DNA from: Desulfovibrio sp. 86
GTDB taxonomy: Bacteria > Desulfobacterota > Desulfovibrionia > Desulfovibrionales > Desulfovibrionaceae
Direction: 5' to 3'
NCBI RefSeq assembly: GCF_902702915.1
Contig: NZ_LR738849.1
Location: forward strand, 1,178,001-1,242,000
Length of the DNA stretch: 64,000 nt
This document shows, piece after piece, positions 10,252 to 57,043 of the stretch. Made by a program: the position numbers and the translations under genes. The stretch's first letter is position 1. Every line of letters starts with the position of its first letter. The notes under the pieces are model-generated. The model searched no databases. It was not told the DNA's origin and saw nothing but the letters and a program-made list of their open reading frames with translations.

Positions 10252-11748
10252 GTGAACTCGTCATTATATATAGGCGCCACCGGCATGAAAGGCCTGGCTG
10301 AGGGCATGAATGTTACCACCAATAACATCGCCAACATCAGCACCATAGGCTTCAAGCAGCAGGGCATCCTGTTTTCCGACATTTTCTATGCCCAGCAAGG
10401 CGGCATGGGAGACTGGTGGAACGCGCAGGAAAACTCGCGTGTGGCTCTGGGCCAGGTCGGCATGGGCCTTCAGGTGGAGTCCGTGCGCACCATGTTCGGC
10501 CAGGGTTCTTTTGACTCCAGCAATACGGTCACGGACATGGCCATCAGCGGCAAGGGCTTTTTTCAGGTCACGGATGGCGTGAAGCTGTACTATACCCGTG
10601 CCGGCGACTTTCGCACGGATGATCAGGGTGTTCTGCGCACGCCTTCGGGCATGGCCCTCAACGGGTATAAGTACAATGCCGACGGCTCCAAGGGCGGCCT
10701 GCAACAGGTCACCATTGACAAGTTCGCCAAAATGCCCGCCAAAACAACCACAGCCGTGGACATGCGCTACAACCTCGGCCTGAAAACGCCAAACTCCACT
10801 GACGCGACCAATCCGTATTTCACCCTTCTCAGCAACTACAATGCCTCCAATTCGCCACCCATTTCCAACACGGCCTATGGGTACGCGCAGGGCATCACCA
10901 TGTACGGTGCGGACGGAACCCAGCAACAGGCCACCATCTATTTTGACGCCGCCCCCAGCGGTCAGCCGGACAGTGTGGTGAAATACCTCATCGCCTCCGG
11001 CGACACCGCCAAGGACGGCACGGCCACGGCTGGCACGGGCGCGCTCATGACCGGCACCCTGACCTTTGACTCCAAGGGGCAGCTGAAGGACATGACGGCC
11101 TTTACCCCGGCGGTGGCGGGCAGCACCAATCTGACGGACTGGGTGCCCTCGCAGCTTTCGGCGGACGGCCTGCCCCAGATGACCGTGAACGGGACGCCCA
11201 CCACGGTGGACCTGGGCATCAAGTCCGCTGGCGGCTGGCAGAACGCGCCCGCCAACGCGGCGGCCGTGGGCGCGAACCAGTCCGCCCTGGGCGGCATGGG
11301 CACGGGCGCAACCGTTGCCGTTGACGCCACCACCAACTACACCGGCACTTCGCCGGTCACGCGGCGCAACACCCAGAACGGATACGCCTCAGGCACCTTG
11401 AGCAACATCAGCATTTCCAACGACGGCACGGTGGTGGGCAACTACTCCAACAACCAGAGCTCCAACCTGTGGCAGATACCTGTCTGCCGGTTTACCAGCG
11501 AGGACGGATTGCGCCGTGAAGGCAACAACCTCTTCAGCGCCTCGCCCGATGCCGGAAAAATGGAAATGGGCGTTGCCGGGTCGGAAAACTATGGGACCAT
11601 CCGAGCCTACAACACCGAAAATTCCAACGTGGACATGGCCACGGAAATGACCAATATGATCATTACCCAGCGCGGCTTCCAGTCAAACAGCAAGGTGGTC
11701 ACAACGGCAGACCAGATGCTGCAAAAGGCCGTGGAACTCAAGCGTTAG
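10252..11748 (+). CDS. flgE: Flagellar hook protein FlgE
   Basis: 498-aa hook-type protein, the subunit of the flagellar hook. The N-terminus (SSLYIGATGMKGLAEGMNVTTNNIANISTIGFKQQ) is the hallmark rod/hook/filament D0 helix region, and the C-terminus ends with SNVDMATEMTNMIITQRGFQSNSKVV and the usual helix. The middle is a Thr/Ala/Gly-rich, variable surface domain. The GTG start at 10252 has TGGAGG at 10241-10246. It stands alone, with no basal-body genes next to it. The stop TAG at 11746 is the first triplet of a TAGAGC-type repeat. Confidence 0.9.
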   Translation: MNSSLYIGATGMKGLAEGMNVTTNNIANISTIGFKQQGILFSDIFYAQQGGMGDWWNAQENSRVALGQVGMGLQVESVRTMFGQGSFDSSNTVTDMAISGKGFFQVTDGVKLYYTRAGDFRTDDQGVLRTPSGMALNGYKYNADGSKGGLQQVTIDKFAKMPAKTTTAVDMRYNLGLKTPNSTDATNPYFTLLSNYNASNSPPISNTAYGYAQGITMYGADGTQQQATIYFDAAPSGQPDSVVKYLIASGDTAKDGTATAGTGALMTGTLTFDSKGQLKDMTAFTPAVAGSTNLTDWVPSQLSADGLPQMTVNGTPTTVDLGIKSAGGWQNAPANAAAVGANQSALGGMGTGATVAVDATTNYTGTSPVTRRNTQNGYASGTLSNISISNDGTVVGNYSNNQSSNLWQIPVCRFTSEDGLRREGNNLFSASPDAGKMEMGVAGSENYGTIRAYNTENSNVDMATEMTNMIITQRGFQSNSKVVTTADQMLQKAVELKR

Positions 11749-11896
11749 AGCTTTTTACCTTTGAAAAAGTGTAACTGCTCTAACGCTGTACGAAAGTACA
11801 GCGCGCCACAACGTGGCGTGGATTCAACCGCAAATCGCATTTTTCGGCTGAATGAAAACTTTGAAATGTGAAACATTTCAAAGTTAATCTGCTCTA
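11746..11896. repeat. TAGAGCA-family palindromic element beginning at the flgE stop codon
   Basis: 151 bp starting TAGAGCTTTTTACC and ending TTAATCTGCTCTA. It contains several nested hairpins (CTGTACGAAAGTACAG, GCCACAACGTGGC, CTTTGAAATGTGAAACATTTCAAAG). The part GGCTGAATGAAAACTTTGAAATG recurs inverted at 62585-62635. Confidence 0.75.
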
Positions 11897-29066: not shown

Positions 29067-30620
29067 ATGCAAAGCTCCACCCCGACGCTGGCGCGCCGCT
29101 ACATCTTCAAGCTTTTGGCAAACATCGCCACTGTACCCGTCTACCTGGTCATGGAGGCGATCCTTCCGCGCGCCCTGGGCCCGCACATGTACGGCAACTA
29201 CAGCTTTGCCACCAACCTTTTTCAGCAGCTTACCGGCTTTCTGGATATGGGCACCTCCACCTGCTTTTACAATGCCCTGTCCCGCCGACAGAACGAAACC
29301 GGTCTTGTGGGATTCTACGCCCGTGTGACCGTACTGGTCTTCGGCATCATCCTGCTGGCGGCGCTGGCCCTGCAAGCGCCCGCACTGGGTGATCTGCTCA
29401 TGCCGGACGTGCCCCTGTGGCTGGCCCCCCTGGCGGCGTTGTGGGCCTTTCTTACCTGGTGGGGACGGGTGCTGCGCTCAATGAACGACGCCGTGGGAGC
29501 CACTGTGGCCTCGGAAATGGTGCGCACGGTGGTTTCGCTGTTCATGGTGGCCCTGCTGGGCCTCATGTTCTGGCAGGACTGGCTGAACATACACACCCTT
29601 TTCGCACAGCAGTACCTCATGCTGGGGCTTATGGCCCTTGGCTACTGGCTGGTGACGCGCCGCCACTGGCGCAGCCGCGAGGTGGCCCTGGCGTTCAGCC
29701 TGCCCGACGGGCAGAGCAAGGCCTACCGCCGCGAGTTTTTCAATTACAGCCATCCGCTTTTTGTGCAGGCGCTGCTCTCGTTCCTGCTGCTCACCGCCGA
29801 ACGCTGGCTCTTGCAGTGGTTTGACGGCAGCGTGCAGCAGGGCTTTTTTGCCCTGTCGCAAAAGGTCAGCATGGCCTGTTTTCTTTTTGTTTCGGCCATG
29901 ACGCCGCTCATCATGCGCGAGCTTTCCATAGCCTGGGGGCACAATGACCGCGAGGCCATGGGACGCCTGCTCACGCGCTTCGCTCCTCTGCTCTATGTTG
30001 TTGCGGCCTATTTTTCCTGCTTTACGCTGGTGGAAGGCTCCGCCCTGGTGGACTTTTTTGGCGGGGCGGAATTTGCCGCAGCCACACTGCCCGTGCAGAT
30101 CATGGCTCTTTACCCGCTGCACCAGGCTTACGGCCAGTTGGCCGGATCGGTCTTTCACGCCACAGGGCGCACGCGCGTACTGCGCAACATGGCGGCCCTT
30201 GAGTGTGTTTACGGTTTCACCACTGCATGGTTTCTGCTGGCCCCGCCGGAGTATATGGGACTGAACCTGGGAGCCGTCGGCCTTGCCATCAAAACAGTGG
30301 CCGTGCAGATCATCACGGTCAACGTTTATTTATGGCTGGCTTCGCGCTTTCTGCCCCTGAGCTTTTGGCGCAATTTCGCCCACCAGATATGGAGCCTCGC
30401 CGTGCTGCTCACCCTGGCGTGGCTGTGCCGTGAAGGAACCATCATGGTTGGCCTGGGCGACCTCAACACCTTTTCGCGTTTTCTTGTCTCAGGCGTGCTG
30501 TACAGCGTTGGGGTCGGGGTAGTCTGCGTGGCCATGCCCGCCTTGCTCGGACTTTCGCGGCAGGATGTGCGGGAGCTTGTGGCCCGCTTCAGGAAGTCCC
30601 GTCAAAAGTCCGGGGAGTAG
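29067..30620 (+). CDS. Polysaccharide/lipid-linked oligosaccharide flippase (MOP superfamily, Wzx-like)
   Basis: 517-aa polytopic membrane protein with roughly 12-14 hydrophobic helices. The N-terminus (LARRYIFKLLANIATVPVYLVMEAILPRALGP...YGNYSFATNLFQ) is typical of O-antigen/capsule flippases of the polysaccharide-biosynthesis family. It is predicted to move undecaprenyl-linked glycans across the inner membrane. No glycosyltransferases or other surface-sugar genes are adjacent, so it stands outside a normal locus. Downstream is the long repeat region. The SD is weak (GTGGGG about 13 bases before the ATG). Confidence 0.78.
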   Translation: MQSSTPTLARRYIFKLLANIATVPVYLVMEAILPRALGPHMYGNYSFATNLFQQLTGFLDMGTSTCFYNALSRRQNETGLVGFYARVTVLVFGIILLAALALQAPALGDLLMPDVPLWLAPLAALWAFLTWWGRVLRSMNDAVGATVASEMVRTVVSLFMVALLGLMFWQDWLNIHTLFAQQYLMLGLMALGYWLVTRRHWRSREVALAFSLPDGQSKAYRREFFNYSHPLFVQALLSFLLLTAERWLLQWFDGSVQQGFFALSQKVSMACFLFVSAMTPLIMRELSIAWGHNDREAMGRLLTRFAPLLYVVAAYFSCFTLVEGSALVDFFGGAEFAAATLPVQIMALYPLHQAYGQLAGSVFHATGRTRVLRNMAALECVYGFTTAWFLLAPPEYMGLNLGAVGLAIKTVAVQIITVNVYLWLASRFLPLSFWRNFAHQIWSLAVLLTLAWLCREGTIMVGLGDLNTFSRFLVSGVLYSVGVGVVCVAMPALLGLSRQDVRELVARFRKSRQKSGE

Positions 30621-30689
30621 GGCTGCGCCGCTGATGGCGTTTGCGCTGTGCGCGGCGGGGGGGCGAAATCTTCGCCGTAGATACTTAAA

Positions 30690-31180
30690 AGAAGGCAAAA
30701 CAGGGCTTGCCCTTTGAGAATAAGCTTCTGTGCCCTGCGGGCACGGCGGCTTTTCTTTTATTTAGTTTGGGCCGCCTGCGCGGGAAGGCGTGGGGTATGC
30801 GCGACGGGCGCTCTGAAGAAATAAAGCAGGGCTTGCCCTCTGAGAATAAGCTTCTGCGCCCTGCGGGCGCGGGGGCTTTTCTTTAATTTAATTTGGGCCG
30901 CCTGCGCGGGAAGACGTGGGGTATGCGCGACGGGCGCTCTGAAGAAGGCAAAGCAGGGCTTGCCCTTTGAGAATAAGCTTCTGCGCCCTGCGGGCACAGG
31001 GGCTTTTCTTTTATTTAGTTTGGGCCGCCTGCGCGGGAAGGCGTGGGGTATACGCGACGGGCGCTCTGAAGAAGGCAAAACAGGGCTTGCCCTTTGAGAA
31101 TAAGCTTCTGTGCCCTGCGGGCACGGCGGCTTTTCTTTTATTTAGTTTGGGCCGCCTGCGCGGCGGGCGGCAGATGGGGG
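30690..31180 (+). repeat. 127-bp tandem repeat array, about four units
   Basis: Units recur with CAGGGCTTGC at 30701, 30827, 30954 and 31081 (periods 126, 127, 127). Each unit has CAGGGCTTGCCCT, GAGAATAAGCTTCTG, a GCCCTGCGGGC hairpin followed by GGCTTTTCTTT, then GGGCCGCCTGCGCGG and a GGGCGCTCT end. The hairpin plus T-rich tract makes each unit terminator-like on the plus strand. Units differ by only a few bases. Unit length and lack of unique spacers rule out CRISPR. Confidence 0.9.
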
Positions 31181-32290
31181 CCTGTTAGGGGCTGCCGCCC
31201 CTCCGAGGCCCCCTCTGCACTCCCCCCGGACGACCCCGCTGGGCTTGTCGTATATTCCCACTCCCACGGATTGACCTTCAAGGGCCTTCCATATCCCGCC
31301 ATTCCACGAGGGCTGCGCGGCCTCTGCTTCGGGAGCTTCCTCGCTGCGCTCGGCGATCTCCCTGCGCGCCGCGCAATGCCAGCGTGCGCCTCCGCGTTGT
31401 ATGCAAGGCCGAGGCCACCGCGCTGACTTGGGACATCATTGAGGATTTAGGTTTTATAGCTGATCGTTGTGTTACGGACAAACGTGCCGCAGTTGTTGTG
31501 TGGTTCAGCCCCAAAAAATCTGTCGCACAAGCAACACAGTGGGGTCTGCGCAGTTTCTCAGGCAGAGAGCGGATTGATGCCGGGGGCGGCGTCATAAAGA
31601 ACCGAAGCCGACACGTCGGCGAGGTTCGTGCGTAGCCGCCCCCGAAAAAACACATTTATCGGTCAGGGTAGGACAGCGGGGTGCTTCGGGGGGGATGCAA
31701 GGGGGGCCGAGAAGGGGGCGCAGCCCCATAACCTACCCCGCCTTGCCGCACGCCGCGAAGGCGGCCAAAACAACAGGAAAAGAAAGCCGCCGTGCCCGCA
31801 GGGCGCAACACCCACCTCTCAGAGGACAAGCTCGGCTTGATTCTCCAGAAACCGCAGCTACGTATACCCCCTCACCACAACGTGCTTTCCCCAACAATAA
31901 CCCACCATTCCCGAAGCTCCATACCGTCAACACGACGCCCCCAAGCCCTCATGCAGCGCGAAGACGCACGCTGGCATTGCGCGGCGCGCAGGGAGATCGC
32001 CGAGCGGAGCGAGGAAGCTCCCGGAGCAAAAGCCGCGCAGCCCTCGGACAATGGCAGAAACGGGAAAGCCCAGCGGGGTGCTTCGGGGGGGATGCAAGGG
32101 GGGCCGAGAAGGGGGCGCAGCCCCATAACCGGCCCCGCCTTGCCGCCCGCCGCGAAGGCGGCCCAAGCAACAGAAAAAGGAAAGCCCCCGTGCCCGCAGG
32201 GCACAACACCCACCTCTCAGAAGACAGGCCCTGCTTTGCCCTCTTCAGAGCGCCCGCCGCGCATACCCACGCCGCGTCGCACGCCGCGCA
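31142..32290. repeat. Imperfect long inverted repeat enclosing the tandem array's right side
   Basis: 31142-31250 (GGGCCGCCTGCGCGG...CGACCCCGCTGGG) is the inverse of 32075-32165. 31290-31395 (CCATTCCACGAGGGCTGCGCGG...) is inverse to about 31950-32060. Right-side segments 31675-31830 and 32070-32225 are direct copies of each other (GCGGGGTGCTTCGGGGGGGATGCAAGGGG...), and each ends with a diverged inverse of the 127-bp unit. The centre, ~31420-31670, is unique, with a small open frame (31384-31635) of no recognisable family. No credible gene lies in 30621-32374. Confidence 0.8.
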
Positions 32291-32310
32291 GAGCACAGAA
32301 ACCGCTTTTC

Positions 32311-32350
32311 AACGCAAAAGGCCCCGCCGTTCGGCGGGGCCTTTTGCGTT
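32311..32350. terminator. Perfect bidirectional terminator downstream of the chemoreceptor gene
   Basis: AACGCAAAAGGCCCCGCC pairs with GGCGGGGCCTTTTGCGTT around GTTC. It lies 25 bases past the minus-strand stop at 32375. Confidence 0.85.
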
Positions 32351-32374
32351 GTTCCGTCTAAACTATATGAAGCC

Positions 32375-34702
32375 CTACCCATTCGCACTCAAACTCGTGA
32401 TAAGCCTTTCCAGTTCATTCGCCTGTCTGGACAGATCGGCAATGGCGGTACTGCACTGCGCCATGCCCTGATCCGTGGCATCGGCAATACTGCTGATGGA
32501 GCTGATGGCCCTGTTGATTTCTTCTGACGTTGCAGACTGCTGTTCAGCAGCCGCCGCGATGGAATGCACCTGATCTCCGGCGGTTTCCACCATACGCACC
32601 ACCTGGGCTATGGCCTCGCCGGAGCGTTGCGCCAGGCTGGTGGCCTCGGCCACGCGCTGCACCGCCGCTTCCATCTGGGTTACGGCGTCCTTGGTGCCTT
32701 CCTGTATGCCGCCAACGGCGTGGCGCACTTCCGTGGTGGCCTGAGCGGTTTTTTCGGCCAGCTTGCGCACCTCGTCGGCCACAACGGCAAAGCCCCGTCC
32801 GGCATCGCCCGCGCGGGCGGCTTCGATGGCGGCGTTAAGGGCCAGCAGGTTCGTCTGGTCGGCAATATCGGATATAACGCCCATAACGGCCCCAATACCC
32901 CGCGCCTGATCCCCGAGCTTGTCCATTATGCTGGTCAGCCGTGAAGCTTCCGTGTGGATGGACTGCACCGCTGCGGTCACCTCGGCCACCATGTGCGCGC
33001 CGTTCTGGGCTTCGACCTTGGTCGCGTCCCCGGTTTGCGAGGTGGCGGCGGCATTCTGCGCCACTTCCATAATGGTGGCGTTCATCTCTTCCACGGCCGT
33101 GGCGGTCTGGGCTACGCGTGAGCTTTGCTCGCGCGCGCCCTCACTGGAGTGGGCGATCTGATCCGAAAGCTGTTTCGAGGCCTCGGCCATATGCTCAACC
33201 ACCTGCGAAGCCTCGTGGGCCGCCTGGGCAATGGCCGTGTTCTGGGCTTCAATACGGCTTTTCTGGTTGTATATCTCTGTCAGATCATTCCAAAAAGTTA
33301 TGGAGCCAAGAAGCGTGCCGTCAAGGTTGTAAAATGGCGTGGACTGCGCGGCTATGCGCAGCTGGCGGCCCGAAGCTGACATATAGTCGAATTCCAACAT
33401 AAGAGTCTTACGCTCCCTGATGGCCTGATCGGACAAGGTCTCGCGTGTCGAGTCATTCTGGAAAAACAGGCCGGAACGCTGCCCGACATAGGATTCACGC
33501 GAGCCTGTTTTTTCAAGCATCTTACATAGTTCGTCATTGATCCAGATCATGTTGAAATCCGGCCCCACAATGCCGCAAGGCGTGGGGATGCCGTCCAGCA
33601 CGCCCTGCGAAAAGCCGAGGCGCTTCTTGAGTTCTTCCACCATGGTGTTCAGGTAGCCGGCAAATGTCGCCATTTCGGCCCTGAACTGGCCGTGCATGGC
33701 AGCCTTGAGGTCACCGGCCGCCACCCTGGCGGTAAAGTCCGACAGGGCGCGCAGGGGCTTGAATACCAGACGCTGATTGATAACGGTCAGCAGCACGGCC
33801 AGGAACACGATGGCCGCAAGGCCCACGCCGCACAGTACTGTTCGCTGGGTCAGGGCGGGGGCCGCCAGTTCTGCGTCATAGGCGCTCATGCACACGAGCC
33901 AGCCCGTGGCCGTAATGGGCGCCACGGTCATAAATTTTTTCTCGCCTTCCCAAGGATATTCGATGATACCCTTCTGGGCCTTCAAGGCTTTCTGGATAAA
34001 GTCCTGTCCCGAAAGATCGGTGAGCAGCAGCTTTTTATTGGCGCCGTGGGCGATAATGCGCCCCGTGGCGTCCAGGGCGAAACCGTAGCCCCGCTTTCCA
34101 AGCCGGATGGGGTCAATGGTTTTGGCGGTAAAGTCGCTCCAGCGCGGACACACGGCCACGGCTCCCATCAGGGTGCCGTCGGCGGCGTACACCGCCTTGG
34201 CCACAACGTATATGAGCATGCCCGCATCCGTGGTGGCCGTCATGACGCTGCCGCTGAAGGCGACACTTTTACCGCTGAAAATGGCCTTGCTGTAATCGCG
34301 GTCAAAACGGTCGCCGCCTGCCATGTCCTTGAGATCGGCATTAAGCCCGGCCACGATGCGGCCTTTGACGTCAAAAACGAAAAATGACCAGTAGGCCGGA
34401 AAGGCTTTTATATATGTATGTAGAAGCTGCTGCACGTCCTGCTTTGCCAGGGTTGAACCGTCCAGCGCGTCACGGATAACTTCCTGACCGGCCAAGGACG
34501 AGGCCACACTGACGGACTGCTCAATATAGTTCTCTGCGGACTGGGCCACGATCATGGCCGTCTGGTCCAGAGCGGCACTCTGCACCCCGGACACCATCCG
34601 GTAGGATGATGAGGACACGTACGCGATCAGAACCGCTATGATGATAAAAATGGATGCTGTTATGGAAACAGTGCAAATGGTATTTATGCGAAGCTGCCGC
34701 AT
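32375..34702 (-). CDS. Methyl-accepting chemotaxis protein with Cache and PAS domains
   Basis: 775-aa chemoreceptor. An N-terminal membrane helix (~10-32) is followed by a periplasmic dCache-type sensor (~35-285, with [19 protein letters not shown] and [16 protein letters not shown]), a second helix (~290-320), HAMP (~322-375), a PAS domain (~385-490, [18 protein letters not shown]-like) and the signalling domain. The conserved tip is [30 protein letters not shown]. The ATG at 34702 is chosen over one 66 bases upstream because the helix begins right after it. The ligand is unknown; dCache domains often bind amino or organic acids. 34703-35088 shows no gene. Confidence 0.92.
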
Positions 34703-42577: not shown

Positions 42578-43003
42578 ATGACGCGCACCCTAGATTTACC
42601 CGATATATCGGCCATGCTGAAAATATCTCTGCTTCCCCTTCTGGCGGCCCTCATCCTCATGGCATCCCCAGTCCATGCCATGCCCGGCATGGGCAGCGGC
42701 GAAGGCGGCGGCATGGGCGACAAGTTCAGCCAGATGGATACCAATAAAGACGGCAAGGTCAGCCGTGAAGAGTTCAAGGCGGCCTTTCCCAACATGAGGG
42801 ATGAAGCCTTTGTGGCCATAGACAAGGACGGCGACGGCTTCATTTCCGTTGACGAATGGAATGCCTTCATGAAGGACCATTCTTCCGGCATGCGCCCCAA
42901 TACCATGAATAATGGCCCCATGCCCACTGTTCCCGGCAATCCGATGATGCCCAATCCCGGCAGTCCCGAACTGCCGCTGGTCACGCCGCCCAATGGCAAC
43001 TAA
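42578..43003 (+). CDS. Exported EF-hand calcium-binding protein
   Basis: 141 aa. A signal peptide (SLLPLLAALILMASPVHA) is followed by a Gly/Met-rich linker and two EF-hands: DTNKDGKVSREEF and DKDGDGFISVDEW, each with the full set of Ca2+-ligating positions. The tail is Pro/Asn/Met-rich (NNGPMPTVPGNPMMPNPG), suggesting an unstructured extension. AAGGA lies before the ATG; an ATG at 42614 is an alternative. Its 3' end overlaps the next gene by 11 bases. Function is unknown beyond probable periplasmic Ca2+ binding. Confidence 0.8.
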   Translation: MTRTLDLPDISAMLKISLLPLLAALILMASPVHAMPGMGSGEGGGMGDKFSQMDTNKDGKVSREEFKAAFPNMRDEAFVAIDKDGDGFISVDEWNAFMKDHSSGMRPNTMNNGPMPTVPGNPMMPNPGSPELPLVTPPNGN

Positions 43004-45386
43004 GCGCTCTGGACCGGCCTTTTCCGAGCCCCGGCGTTCCACTGCGAATGCCGGGGCCGCTTCTGTTTCCGGGCCTCAGTCCCGGTCTGAGTCGAGGTCT
43101 GAGTCACGATCACAACACGGCGCACAATCTAAGGCGCAACACAGGCCAAAGCATGGGCATCAGCCCGGGCCGCAGTCCAGTTCATTGGCCGGGGTGCAGT
43201 CTGCGGTACAGTCCGGGCCGTTACCCGCCGGGGAACAGCCCCTCTTTGTGCCCATGAGCGCGGCCGAAATGCACGCTCTTGGCTGGGACAGTCTGGACGT
43301 GCTCTTCATCACCGGCGACGCCTATGTGGATCACCCCTCCTTCGGCAGCGTTCTGCTGGCGCGCTGGCTGATCCACCACGGCTACCGCGCGGGCATTGTG
43401 GCCCAGCCGCGATGGGAAACCCCCGACGACCTTCTGGTCATGGGCAGACCACGCCTGTTCGCCGGCGTCAGCGCTGGCGCGCTGGATTCCCTGCTGGCCC
43501 ACTACACGGCCTTTCGCAAAAAGCGCCATGACGACGCCTACACCCCTGGCGGTCAAGCGGGCGCGCGCCCCAACAGGGCCTGCCTGGTATACGCCAATCT
43601 GGCGCGCCGGGCCTTTCCCGGCCTGCCCCTGGTGCTTGGCGGCATTGAGGGCAGCCTGCGGCGCGTGAGCCATTACGACTTCTGGACAGACTCGCTGCGC
43701 AAGCCCATTCTTATGGACGCCAAGGCCGACCTGCTCATCTGGGGCATGGGAGAGCGCGCCACCCTGGAATGCGCCCAGCGGCTGGACGCCGGGGAAAATT
43801 TGCGCGGCATACCCGGCACAGCCTGGTTGGACAAGCTGGAGCAGACCCCCGACGGCCCGCGCCCGGCCAACCTGCCGCCGAAAATGACCCAGGCCCCCTG
43901 CGTGCCCCTGCCCGGCCACGAAGAAATCCTGGCTGATCCCGTCAAACTGCTGACCATGACGCAGGAGCTGGAACGCCAGGTGCACAGACTGGACGCCTGG
44001 GCCTTTCAGCCCGTGGGCGACCGCGCCGTGGTGCTGGCCCGCCCGGCTCCGCCCCTGACCACGCAGGAAATGGACGCCCTGTATGAAATCCCCTTTACCC
44101 GGCGGCCTCACCCCAGCTACAAGGAAGCCATCCCGGCGGCGGAAATGATGCGCACCAGCATTACCAGCCATCGCGGCTGCGGCGGCGGCTGCTCCTTCTG
44201 CTCGCTGGCCCTGCATCAGGGCCGTCGCATCAGCTCCCGGTCCGAAGCTTCCGTGCTGGACGAGGCACGTCAGCTTGGGCAGGAAAACATGGCCCGTGGC
44301 AAGGGGCCTGTGGCCATTTCGGACGTGGGCGGACCCACGGCCAACATGTGGCAGGGCTATTGCGCCCTTGACCGGGCGGAAATCACCCGCGAAGATCATA
44401 CGCCGCCCGTTGAAACCTCCACGGTGCAAAGCCCCGAACACCACAGCGCCGCGCACGCCCCGGCAGACGCGCCCGCCAGGAGCCGCTGCCGACGGGCAAG
44501 CTGCTGTTACCCTACGGTATGCAAATTTTTCACAACGCCGCAAAACAGGCATGTGGGCCTGCTGCGCAAGGTCGCGGCACTGCCCGAAGTCAAGCAGGCC
44601 CGCGTTGCCAGCGGCGTTCGCGCTGACCTGGCCCTGCGTGACGCCGCCGCCCTGGCCGCCTACACGGGCGAGTTCACGGGCGGGCAACTCAAGGTCGCGC
44701 CCGAACACTGCGCCACCGGCGTGCTCTCGCTCATGCGCAAGCCGCCCCTGGAAGTCTTTGAGGCCTTTCTGGCCAGCTTTGTGCGCCAGAGCAAGGCGGC
44801 AGGACGCGAACAGTACGTTGTTCCCTACCTTATGAGCGGCTTCCCCGGCTGTACGGACGACGACATGCGCACCCTCGCCCACTGGCTGCGCCAGCGCAAC
44901 TGGAATCCACGCCAGACCCAGTGCTTTATCCCCACACCCGGCACCATTGCCACGGCCATGTTTTACTGCGGCAAAAACGAGGCCGGGGAAGACATCTACG
45001 TGGCCCGAACCGATGCCCAGCGCCTGCGGCAGCACGGCCTGCTCATGCCCGGCAGAAGTCCGGGTGACGAGGACGGCAACCGCCCACGGCGCGGCAACGA
45101 AGGCCACGCCCGCAACAATGACGCCAATGCCCGTCGCCAAACACCCGGCGGCAGACAAGGTCGTGATGATCGGCCCGACGCCCGACGTGACGGCCGACCC
45201 GATACCCGACGTGACGCCCAACATGATGCCCAACATGACGCCCGACGTGCCCCCAGGCGTGATGCGGACGCGGCCCAGGCCAGACCCCCGGAAAAGACGG
45301 GCCAGAAACCCGGCAGACAGGGCGGTCGCTCAAATGAAAACAGGCAGGATAGTCGCAAGCTTCCGGCCCCTGGACGCCGCGCCTGA
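42993..45386 (+). CDS. YgiQ-family radical SAM protein
   Basis: 797 aa. The UPF0313/YgiQ core starts near residue 85 (DVLFITGDAYVDHPSFG), includes YANLARRAFPGLPLVLGGIEGSLRR, and has the radical SAM cluster motif CGGGCSFC within TSHRGCGGGCSFCSLALHQGR. The family's reaction is not established. Both termini are unusual: residues ~20-60 are Ser/Arg/Gln/His repeats, and the last ~120 residues are an Arg/Asp/Ala/Gln low-complexity tail (RRDGRPDTRRDAQHDAQHDA). An Ala/Pro/His/Arg-rich insert also follows the central block. It overlaps the EF-hand gene's stop; ATG at 42993. Confidence 0.87.
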   Translation: MATKRSGPAFSEPRRSTANAGAASVSGPQSRSESRSESRSQHGAQSKAQHRPKHGHQPGPQSSSLAGVQSAVQSGPLPAGEQPLFVPMSAAEMHALGWDSLDVLFITGDAYVDHPSFGSVLLARWLIHHGYRAGIVAQPRWETPDDLLVMGRPRLFAGVSAGALDSLLAHYTAFRKKRHDDAYTPGGQAGARPNRACLVYANLARRAFPGLPLVLGGIEGSLRRVSHYDFWTDSLRKPILMDAKADLLIWGMGERATLECAQRLDAGENLRGIPGTAWLDKLEQTPDGPRPANLPPKMTQAPCVPLPGHEEILADPVKLLTMTQELERQVHRLDAWAFQPVGDRAVVLARPAPPLTTQEMDALYEIPFTRRPHPSYKEAIPAAEMMRTSITSHRGCGGGCSFCSLALHQGRRISSRSEASVLDEARQLGQENMARGKGPVAISDVGGPTANMWQGYCALDRAEITREDHTPPVETSTVQSPEHHSAAHAPADAPARSRCRRASCCYPTVCKFFTTPQNRHVGLLRKVAALPEVKQARVASGVRADLALRDAAALAAYTGEFTGGQLKVAPEHCATGVLSLMRKPPLEVFEAFLASFVRQSKAAGREQYVVPYLMSGFPGCTDDDMRTLAHWLRQRNWNPRQTQCFIPTPGTIATAMFYCGKNEAGEDIYVARTDAQRLRQHGLLMPGRSPGDEDGNRPRRGNEGHARNNDANARRQTPGGRQGRDDRPDARRDGRPDTRRDAQHDAQHDARRAPRRDADAAQARPPEKTGQKPGRQGGRSNENRQDSRKLPAPGRRA

Positions 45387-54857: not shown

Positions 54858-55147
54858 GCCCCCTCTGCAAAAATTCGTGGAAAGTCTACAGCGCCAAACA
54901 TCAATTCTTTTTAAATTTAAATAGGTTAATCGTCTTGTGAAAAAAAAATTAATCCCCGTTTCAAACCATCCCCCGCAGAGTCCTCGCGAGCCGACCCTTG
55001 CAAGAGAAGCCATTTCAAGCTAACACGCATGCGCAGAGAAAGGAAGACTGTGACACTGAATTGTTACACATTTCTGCCAACCCTCTGTTATTCCATACAA
55101 CGTATAAGCATTTGCATATCCCTTCCATTTTTCTCACAGGAAAGAGC

Positions 55148-57043
55148 ATGACTGACCATTCCAACGATTCACGCGGCTCCCGCCCTTCTCGAGACGCCCG
55201 CGACGCGCGCGATTCACGCGGCCCCCGCACTCCCCGTGACGCTCGCGATTCTCGCGATTCACGCGGGCCACGTCCCCCCAGGGATGCCCGTGACTCACGC
55301 GACTCGCGCGGCCGTGATGACGCGCCTGTGCGCCGCCCCCTGCGCGAAACTGTTTGCGAGATTGACCGCGACATTCTGCGCCTTTTGCTGCGCCGCCATA
55401 ACATTCTGGCGCGCATGCGCGGCGACAAGTCGCATCTCGACTCCGCCGAAGAAAAATTGCTGCGTGAATCGTGGGAAGGCGCAGTGGCCCGCATCAGCCG
55501 CGACGCTCGCCTTTCGGGCCATTTTTTTTCCCTGATGCAGGAAGTGGAATTTCTGCCCCGCCCCGCAGGCGAGCGCCCCGCTGAAAGCGCCGAAGGCCAG
55601 GACTCTGCCGACGGCCGCGCGGGTGAAGGCCCCGCTGCTCAGGAAGGGCCGGACAAACGCACTGCCTTTAACCTCGCCCCGCCCTCAAAGCCCGTTCGCC
55701 TGCGCATGCCGGCGCCCCTGGCCTGCCGCTCCACCCGCGCCTGGCTTATGCTGGCCGCAGCCACGGGACAGCCCACGCGCGTGAGCCCCTGCCTCATGAA
55801 CGACCCCATTGTGGATTGCGTGAAGATGCTCATCCAGATCGGCGCATCCCTTACCCGTGAGGACGACGGCGTCACGGCGCGGCCCTCCGTGCCCGTGAGC
55901 GCGCCCGACAAGGTGCTGTACGTGGGCGACAGCGCATGGAACTTCTTTTTGCTGCTGGGGCACTACCTGGGCCGCCCCTCACGCGCGAAATTCATGGGCG
56001 AAACAAGCCTGAAACTGGCCGACCTTTCCGCAGTGCGCCACTTTCTGCCCGCCATGGGCGCCCGCCTTGTGCATGTGGTGCCCAAGAGCGACGGACTGCC
56101 CGCCCGCCTGGAGTGTTCCGGCATTATCCCCGACGCGGTGGTCATGCCCGCCGATACGCCCGCGGAACTGGCCGAAGGCATACTGCTGGCCGCGCCTGGC
56201 TACGAGCACAGCCTCATGATGGATTTGACGGGCCACCCCGCCCAAAAGACCATCTTTGCCCGTACCTTGCCCATACTTCGGGCAGCAGGGGCCGAGGTGA
56301 GCGTGGACGGCGGCGTGGTGCGCATTCATCCGACTAAGCTGGAAATCCCCGCCCTGCCCGACCTGCCCATGGAGCCTGAACTGGCGCTCTTCCTGCTGTC
56401 CCTGCCCCTGGCCATGGGCGGCGAAACCCGCCTTGCCGGACACTGGCCCCAGTGGCCCGCAGCCGAGGCTGGATGGGATCTCCTGCACGGCCTGGGCCTT
56501 GACCTGCGCCAGCAAAAAGGCGCGGATGGCGGCGAAGTGACCGCCAGCAGCACGGCCCCCCTCAAGAACTTCACTCTTGCCGCCCTGCCCGAAAATCTGC
56601 CTTCCGACTGGGCCCCGCTGGCCGTTGGCCTGGCCGCCTGTGCCGCCCTGCGCGGCGCACAGGTCAGCCTGCCCACGCTCCCGCAGGATATGGACGTGCA
56701 TGAAGTGGAGAGTTTCCTCCATGCCCTCGGACTGGAACAGAACAGTGAAGGCAGATTGTGCAAAAATGAACAATCTGGCGTCAAAGCGGGCTGGAATGCC
56801 CCCACCCCTGTCTGGGCCATGGCCCTTGCCCTGGCGGCCTGCGCCAAGCCGCACCAGAAGCTGGGCAACCCCGGCGTCATGACGGGCCTGTACCCGGCCT
56901 TCTGGGCCCTGTACAATGCCCTGCCCGAACCGCCGCAGCGCCGCGCCGCAGCCGAGGCCGCTCCGGCCGCCCCGGCCCGCCGCCGTATTATCACCTCGGT
57001 TGTGGCCGTGCCGCCGGAACTCAAGGAAGATGAAGACTTTTAG
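55148..57043 (+). CDS. Chorismate mutase domain fused to a degenerate EPSP-synthase-like domain
   Basis: 631 aa. Residues ~8-58 are Arg/Asp/Ser repeats (RDARDSRDSRGPR). Residues ~66-135 fit an AroQ-type chorismate mutase helix bundle (LRETVCEIDRDILRLLLRRH...GDKS). From ~190 to ~600 the order of elements follows EPSP synthase: LACRSTRAWLMLAAATGQ, then VGDSAWNFFLLLGHYLG, FMGETSLKLADL, and ALFLLSLPLAMGGETRL. The EPSPS hallmark residues are missing, though: no PGSKS lysine, NAGT replaced by DSAW, no SSQ. So the second half is probably not an active AroA. ATG at 55148 with AGGAAAG upstream. Confidence 0.7.
   Translation: MTDHSNDSRGSRPSRDARDARDSRGPRTPRDARDSRDSRGPRPPRDARDSRDSRGRDDAPVRRPLRETVCEIDRDILRLLLRRHNILARMRGDKSHLDSAEEKLLRESWEGAVARISRDARLSGHFFSLMQEVEFLPRPAGERPAESAEGQDSADGRAGEGPAAQEGPDKRTAFNLAPPSKPVRLRMPAPLACRSTRAWLMLAAATGQPTRVSPCLMNDPIVDCVKMLIQIGASLTREDDGVTARPSVPVSAPDKVLYVGDSAWNFFLLLGHYLGRPSRAKFMGETSLKLADLSAVRHFLPAMGARLVHVVPKSDGLPARLECSGIIPDAVVMPADTPAELAEGILLAAPGYEHSLMMDLTGHPAQKTIFARTLPILRAAGAEVSVDGGVVRIHPTKLEIPALPDLPMEPELALFLLSLPLAMGGETRLAGHWPQWPAAEAGWDLLHGLGLDLRQQKGADGGEVTASSTAPLKNFTLAALPENLPSDWAPLAVGLAACAALRGAQVSLPTLPQDMDVHEVESFLHALGLEQNSEGRLCKNEQSGVKAGWNAPTPVWAMALALAACAKPHQKLGNPGVMTGLYPAFWALYNALPEPPQRRAAAEAAPAAPARRRIITSVVAVPPELKEDEDF

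Follow-up and report, generated by a model that had tools for sequence, protein, structure and literature searches.

Architecture of the Locus

The window, a stretch of 64,000 nt of the Desulfovibrio sp. 86 chromosome (contig NZ_LR738849.1, positions 1,178,001 to 1,242,000), contains a long intergenic element at 30,690-32,243, between a gene for a polysaccharide flippase-like protein and one for a methyl-accepting chemotaxis protein. The 3' ends of both flanking genes point at the element, within which a codon-usage gene caller finds no gene. The nearest named relatives of the flippase-like protein belong to Desulfovibrio, namely MES5 (98% protein identity) and STF2_171 (93%). An earlier note had placed the region beside a surface-glycan flippase; the polysaccharide-synthesis domain PF01943 agrees with that description of the gene, but no tie between element and flippase follows, since such elements adjoin many unrelated genes. 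The parts of the locus are as follows.

29067..30620, + strand: left flanking gene, polysaccharide flippase-like (PF01943); gene caller, domain match
30690-30787, 30818-30913, 30943-31040, 31070-31170 (overall 30690..31170), + strand: left arm, four tandem A modules; repeat analysis, profile models
31188..31246, + strand: left-arm module B, GC-rich; profile model
31300..31408, + strand: left-arm module C, self-complementary; profile model, folding
31546..31670, + strand: inner module D; profile model, own-genome matches
31676..31744, - strand: variant B ("b") adjoining D; second B model
31746..31844, - strand: inverse A on the side of D; profile model
31946..32053, - strand: right-arm inverse C; profile model
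32066..32141, - strand: right-arm inverse B/b; profile models
32143..32243, - strand: right-arm inverse A, outermost on the right; profile model
32310..32351, no strand: separate perfect 20-bp hairpin; inverted-repeat search
32375..34702, - strand: right flanking gene, methyl-accepting chemotaxis protein (PF00015, dCache_1); gene caller, domain match

The 127-bp tandem array of four close copies that had been reported from this gene-free stretch is recovered by Tandem Repeats Finder at 30,689-31,163, with a period of 127, 3.7 copies and 92% matches; its score of 838 compares with 158 for the runner-up among the window's five rows. Over 132 nt, copies 2, 3 and 4 are respectively 89, 96, and 77% identical to copy 1, the fourth matching it at 100% for the first 95 bases and then departing from the array. 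Each left-arm A carries a hairpin (GTGCCC or GCGCCC, loop TGC, GGGCAC or GGGCGC) followed by a T-rich tail, and at least one terminator-like match is found in each of the four units. The inverse unit copies announced for the right side were also found, at 31,746-31,844 and 32,143-32,243, as were the duplicated GGGGTGCTTCGGGG blocks, which are GC-rich and form part of a 112-nt direct repeat (94% identical, spacing 397 nt). The same note missed the long inverted arms at 31,282-31,403 and 31,950-32,071 (122 nt, 86% complementary); the six longest inverted pairs within 30,001-33,000 measure 86-122 nt and are 76-86% complementary. Altogether, the repeat and inverted-pair structure of the window is far beyond chance. 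The D module, at the centre of the element, contains a dyad core of 36 nt (31,594-31,629). Regarding the separate hairpin at 32,310-32,351, it is probably the terminator of the right-hand gene and probably lies outside the element, because a similar hairpin occurs at the corresponding STF2_171 locus, where the element is absent.

Two further sets of tandem repeats lie within open reading frames of the window: a 45-nt repeat of 3.3 copies at 55,165-55,313, in a long ORF (54,998-57,043), and overlapping repeats with periods of 24 and 12 nt at 45,162-45,249, near the end of a 797-aa ORF (42,993-45,386).

A Dispersed Family in Desulfovibrio

Within the own genome (G000), the 127-nt unit, hereafter A, has at least 57 matches, the B-C stretch (31,188-31,420) at least 40, and the centre, D, at least 8, so that the centre (31,420-31,670), which had been described as unique, is not wholly so: its part 31,546-31,670 is a repeated module. 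Among the matches listed, these make up 19 elements in 18 stretches of the 3.46-Mb chromosome, window included, the structure being present, whole or in part, at 18 other own-genome places. With two partial A matches of 40 nt by rRNA operons, the mapped own-genome clusters number 21. Twenty stretches of 20 kb taken across the own chromosome gave no further element copy at E 0.01.

Related elements are present in sister Desulfovibrio species. The D core, searched with at most three mismatches, is present in six genomes, all from one genus, out of 288 in the family; a control pattern is present in none. Twenty-four D-core copies are listed, and 16 of them, from five genomes and as many species, are exact; these 24 were selected by the three-mismatch limit, and more diverged or partial D copies exist. 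The C model matches 16 of 79 genus genomes under stricter filters, which lose weak matches, the own genome accounting for 28 matches and G017 for 45. C is thus more widely distributed than D. The one-armed A-B-C form may be the older one, the D-bearing form having come later. No prior description of such a repeat in Desulfovibrio was found in the open-licence literature, including the consulted parts of PMC12306157, PMC10888264, PMC1525189, and PMC2267715.

An unrelated dispersed repeat of 146 nt, made of several hairpins, is also found in the window (11,746-11,891, - strand) and at L098:5248-5393. It has 17 near-full-length copies in 595 kb of own-genome sequence, most of them 87-98% identical and some 76-81%, and is also found in G106. 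At L139:12683-14010, a place in the own genome matching the left flank and a short right-flank piece of the G102 locus L165, a copy of this 146-nt repeat is found instead of an element.

Order and Orientation of the Modules

Profile models of A, B, C, and D were built from the first hits and run on 32 loci from G000 and G017, on the window and on one MES5 locus; together with a second B model, they were then applied to 31 loci from five more genomes. The 71 elements thus mapped in eight genomes comprise 36 two-armed ones and 35 that are one-armed or consist of a single module, counts to be read with the knowledge that the models derive from G000 and G017, that loci were found by similarity to modules and that sister-species loci are not independent of each other. 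In all 36 two-armed elements, every + module lies to the left of every - module, D being left out as it is found both ways round. Of 107 arms, 101 have A as their outermost module. Among 288 pairs of module neighbours less than 70 nt apart, read inward, 282 are AB (105), BC (93), or AA (84), the others being CA (4) and CC (2). The inverse variant b lies 6-8 nt from D in 19 of 30 D copies, and several of the other D matches are partial.

The same order is found in five more distant species, where 16 loci were picked as C-model matches: A-B-C stand in order at 11 of them, and the other five, three without an A match and two without a B match, keep their remaining modules in the same order. Four of these 16 loci are two-armed, all with the orientation of the main set. 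The repeating half is an ordered A-B-C with A on the gene side, and many elements are two such halves facing each other; in one species group, the facing halves surround a D-bearing core. On the inner side of C, several loci of distant Desulfovibrio genomes (L173, L174, L177-L180, L184, L022) carry a repeat that can be read as a short peptide, with SGEFKEG close to the end. This stretch, which occupies the position held by D in the window's species group, is probably another intergenic repeat.

Placement at Gene Ends and Terminator-Like A Modules

Gene orientation was taken from the codon-usage gene caller, 11 of the 71 elements having no assigned gap. Of the 60 assigned gaps in all genomes, 30 are convergent, 30 co-directional and none divergent. 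In the own genome, 8 of 13 assigned gaps are convergent and 5 co-directional (8 further are unassigned), against 36 convergent, 119 co-directional, and 37 divergent among 192 background gaps longer than 100 bp. At L006, one of the unassigned places, the nearest called genes on both sides point away, one from a distance of 1.1 kb. Of the 97 outermost modules that have a called gene within 700 bp, 75 face a 3' end and 22 a 5' end; a further 28 element sides near a gene, 19 of them next to a 3' end and 9 next to a 5' end, have no outward module. rRNA operons are the upstream neighbours of three own-genome elements, at distances of 0.15-1.6 kb. Since the two-armed shape is also present where one neighbour starts at the element, it belongs to the element itself rather than to the surrounding genes alone.

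The terminator-like hairpin noticed earlier in the units holds as a strand-specific tendency of A. Under a simple rule for intrinsic terminators, which asks for a GC-rich hairpin with a T tract behind it, 85 of 203 A copies pass on the sense strand and 3 on the antisense strand, with 16.5 expected from shuffled sequences; in G026, none of nine A copies passes. Changes on both sides of the stem are found at one of seven A pairs, where C-G has become U-A in 3 of 48 copies. As sequence evidence, these hairpin data support, without proving, that A may terminate incoming transcripts.

Comparison of Orthologous Sites

The gap occupied in the window also holds an element in MES5 (L028) and in G102 (L168), while in STF2_171 (L023) it is nearly empty, with only about 65 bp between the flanks. 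A relic of A suspected by eye in this near-empty gap was rejected, as the A model gives no match there. The left-hand A units number four in the window and two in each of L028 and L168, in agreement with the recent amplification of the tandem units proposed earlier. Among the nine D-bearing loci of G102, seven (L162, L163, L164, L166, L168, L169, and L170) share their gap with elements of G000 and/or G017, the G000 site of L164 being a single A; L165 and L167 have no shared gap within the sequence examined. Flanks at shared sites have 82-92% identity. None of the 12 orthologous site sets compared side by side has the same module content throughout, and in some relatives the same gap contains a lone A unit or no module that could be detected.

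Seven sites offer two or more D copies for comparison. At three of them the D core has opposite orientations in the orthologues (the window, L002, and L008 as against L168, L169, and L163), and at four it is unflipped. L014 retains only the outer ends of both arms; it was considered as a single-A seed, but its alignment instead reads as that of a collapsed element, apparently an internally deleted form of L094.

The likeness of copies was compared for C, among 91 copies. Loci within G000 have a mean identity of 0.849; for G000 compared with G102, the mean is 0.788 over 12 orthologous pairs and 0.786 over the other pairs. C copies are thus more alike within G000 than at sites orthologous with G102, which suggests concerted evolution. 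Homogenisation within the genome probably best explains this likeness, the alternative being a recent re-spreading. Between G000 and G017, orthologous C copies are more alike (0.878, 31 pairs) than non-orthologous ones (0.847), so that homogenisation would be incomplete between close species.

Rearranged Gene Blocks and Position on the Chromosome

Own-genome element flanks were matched to the available G017 loci (REARRANGEMENT). Eight sites are collinear with G017 on both sides (L001, L002, L003, L008, L009, L011, L012, and L014), while the flanks of L004, L005, L006, and both L010 elements meet different partners there; the remaining flanks are matched on one side, or by rRNA only. The rearrangement evidence comes from one set of blocks. 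Block X, consisting of recD2, a small ORF and the chorismate synthase gene aroC, adjoins the metK block in G017 and G106 with an element in between, and likewise in G102 with element L170; in G021 and G023 it lies about 300 and 190 bp, respectively, from metK. In G021, G102, and G023, just the metK half of its block is beside X, the other half being elsewhere. In G000 the two are separate: X occupies 1.763-1.767 Mb and the metK block 1.524-1.529 Mb. Because recD2-aroC adjoins metK in G017, G106, G102, G021, and G023, it is the own genome that seems to have the derived order. A misassembly behind the exchange was discarded as an explanation, as G106, G102, G021, and G023, four genomes beyond the pair compared, keep recD2-aroC by metK. 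The block ends in G000 lie within 0.3 kb of an element, with the exception of the metK end, about 1.25 kb off. In G017, the metK-side block end follows a different repeat, X has the opposite orientation with respect to its G000 neighbours, and some 2 kb next to X are unexplained.

In samples along the chromosome, GC skew stays mostly below zero as far as 1.617 Mb and mostly above zero from 1.650 Mb on, which by the usual rule would place the replication origin between these positions; the location can only be an inferred one, since the best DnaA match lies at 2.876 Mb, away from the skew switch, with a weaker one at 1.650 Mb. The midpoint of the X and metK block positions falls near 1.646 Mb. 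The 19 elements are closer to 1.633 Mb than expected by chance (mean 491 kb, P = 0.0004), also when neighbours are merged to 14 elements (P = 0.026), and 8 of the 19 lie within 140 kb of it, as compared with 1.5 expected. With regard to the recombination hotspot suggested previously, the movement of core-gene blocks next to elements and the flipping of the D core at three of seven sites are in its favour, but they do not amount to a demonstrated hotspot.

Searches for RNA, Coding and Mobile-DNA Features

No family of Rfam 15 matches above its gathering score in the window, and the eight Rfam matches in 17 own-genome loci are seven rRNAs and one FMN riboswitch. The tRNA scan finds none in the window and none in 32 loci, and no sigma-70-like promoter was detected in 30,400-32,500. 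Consensus folds reach -53.3 kcal/mol for C and -52.9 kcal/mol for D, values that carry no shuffle control, and covariation is slight, with 2 of 21 pairs in C and 1 of 16 in D changed on both sides. No genes were called inside the elements of G000 and G017. D was also considered as a coding remnant, a candidate set aside on the weak basis of a stop seen by eye in one reverse frame of the L004 copy.

Phage and plasmid collections contain no match to the element, viral contigs contain no exact match to the D core, and a dif-like pattern gives in the own genome only three-mismatch matches, no more than its reversed control. The transposase domain Y1_Tnp (PF01797) is not matched in the element-rich G017; in G000 it is matched six times, always more than 30 kb from any element, and in G021 twice. 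A REP/RAYT origin was set aside on the ground that no Y1_Tnp gene is near the elements, as judged with the PF01797 model rather than one of the RAYT subfamily. Three of the Y1_Tnp matches, at G000:C1:972806-974568, share strand and score and are spaced by about 700 bp. By eye, no target-site duplication is seen at L023 or at L014/L094, where the boundaries are eroded.

Relation to Known Repeats

Several known repeats share some of these traits. The BOX elements of Streptococcus are intergenic and made of ordered modules, one of them in variable number; they are one-armed and shorter than the Desulfovibrio element, and we know of no two-armed BOX form with an inner dyad. The RU elements of enterobacteria, according to the portion of the source consulted, are small dispersed non-coding sequences likened to MITEs (PMC2759123). 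Unlike these, the Desulfovibrio element has tandemly amplified ends, with neither target duplication nor parent transposase shown, and compared with the terminal inverted repeats of MITEs, inverted arms are found in 36 of 71 elements.

As described in the parts of the sources consulted, the BIMEs built of REP units are intergenic palindromic mosaics occurring in both orientations, often between convergent genes, and have been tied to transcription attenuation, gyrase binding and strain-specific loops (PMC1525189; PMC2267715). Like the BIMEs of Enterobacteria and Pseudomonas, the Desulfovibrio element is intergenic, has modules in two orientations and is enriched in convergent gaps (8 of 13 in the own genome against 36 of 192). 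It differs from them in its modules of 59-125 nt, compared with REP units of about 20-40 nt, in its 19 elements in G000 among the matches listed, compared with a hundred to hundreds per genome, in its fixed outside-to-inside order with one orientation switch where BIMEs simply alternate, and in having no Y1_Tnp gene nearby. On account of unit size, copy number and the missing Y1_Tnp neighbour, it is not classed as REP or BIME. TRIP1 of E. coli consists of few long repeats at fixed loci, causing inversions and flank exchange, and no ordered modules of the present kind are described for it in the part of the source consulted (PMC10888264). In Desulfovibrio, unlike in this E. coli type, orthologous sites differ in unit number and in the orientation of the core. 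By analogy, the Desulfovibrio element may work most like BIMEs and, as far as flank exchange is concerned, like TRIP1.

Interpretation

Taken together, the sequence comparisons are probably best read as those of a palindromic, non-coding mosaic repeat that occurs dispersed in the genus Desulfovibrio, a BIME-like island with terminator-like traits that recombination maintains and remodels. We would class it as a form of bacterial interspersed mosaic repeat not described before. The A modules would end transcripts leaving the flanking genes, from both sides in convergent gaps. Unequal recombination between tandem A or A-B-C units would alter unit number, and recombination between the two inverted arms would flip the core. 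Between dispersed elements, gene conversion and an occasional crossover would keep the copies alike, and the same exchange would move or invert intervening genes.

It is also conceivable, if somewhat unlikely, that the element is a neutral, decaying intergenic repeat, whose grammar and placement are leftovers of its mode of duplication and of its removal from promoters. The very variable unit numbers and the one collapsed copy would fit such decay, as would the presence of D in 6 of 288 genomes in the family and of C in 16 of 79 in the genus, and the existence of diverged or partial D copies; the fixed grammar, the strand-specific terminator-like signal, the D core exact in five species and the occupation of the same gaps across species, with flanking DNA 82-92% identical, speak against it. 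Dispersed intergenic copies with inverted ends and an inner part, together with gaps that in some relatives hold only an A unit or no detected module, recall instead a non-autonomous, MITE-like transposable element with long inverted A-B ends and a transposase acting in trans. This reading is unlikely in view of the lack of genes called inside the G000 and G017 elements, the distribution of Y1_Tnp, the transposase family searched (none in G017, none within 30 kb of G000 elements, two in G021), and the lack by eye of target-site duplications at L023 or L014/L094, whose edges are eroded; in addition, positions are largely common to the species, which suggests age rather than current movement.

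That structured non-coding RNAs such as C or D are selected as RNA appears improbable. The stable consensus folds (-53.3 and -52.9 kcal/mol, without shuffle control) and the D core, exact in 16 of 24 copies with at most three mismatches and in five of six genomes, speak for it, while the lack of an Rfam match and of a sigma-70-like promoter, the little covariation in C and D, and a D orientation that differs relative to the flanks between some orthologues speak against it. A more far-reaching proposal, which we regard as very improbable, is a new class of chromosome element: a two-sided terminator-like island whose conserved 36-nt D dyad would be bound by a dedicated host protein, which would pair up the inverted arms, turn the core round and connect distant islands across the origin, the islands serving as joints for the symmetric exchange of core-gene blocks. 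The odds of a dedicated D protein are reduced by the fact that the 16 exact copies out of 24 came from a three-mismatch selection and that more diverged copies exist.

Under the favoured reading, that of a recombining mosaic repeat, the family stands out among bacterial intergenic repeats, which are usually short and loosely ordered: it is long, has a strict module order and occupies addresses common to the species. Its stages are visible side by side, from A only through the one-armed A-B-C to the two-armed form with D, so that the formation of palindromic repeats, their likeness within a genome and the reshaping of chromosomes can be studied directly. If exchange mediated by the elements is true, it would provide a traceable cause for changed core gene order in Desulfovibrio.
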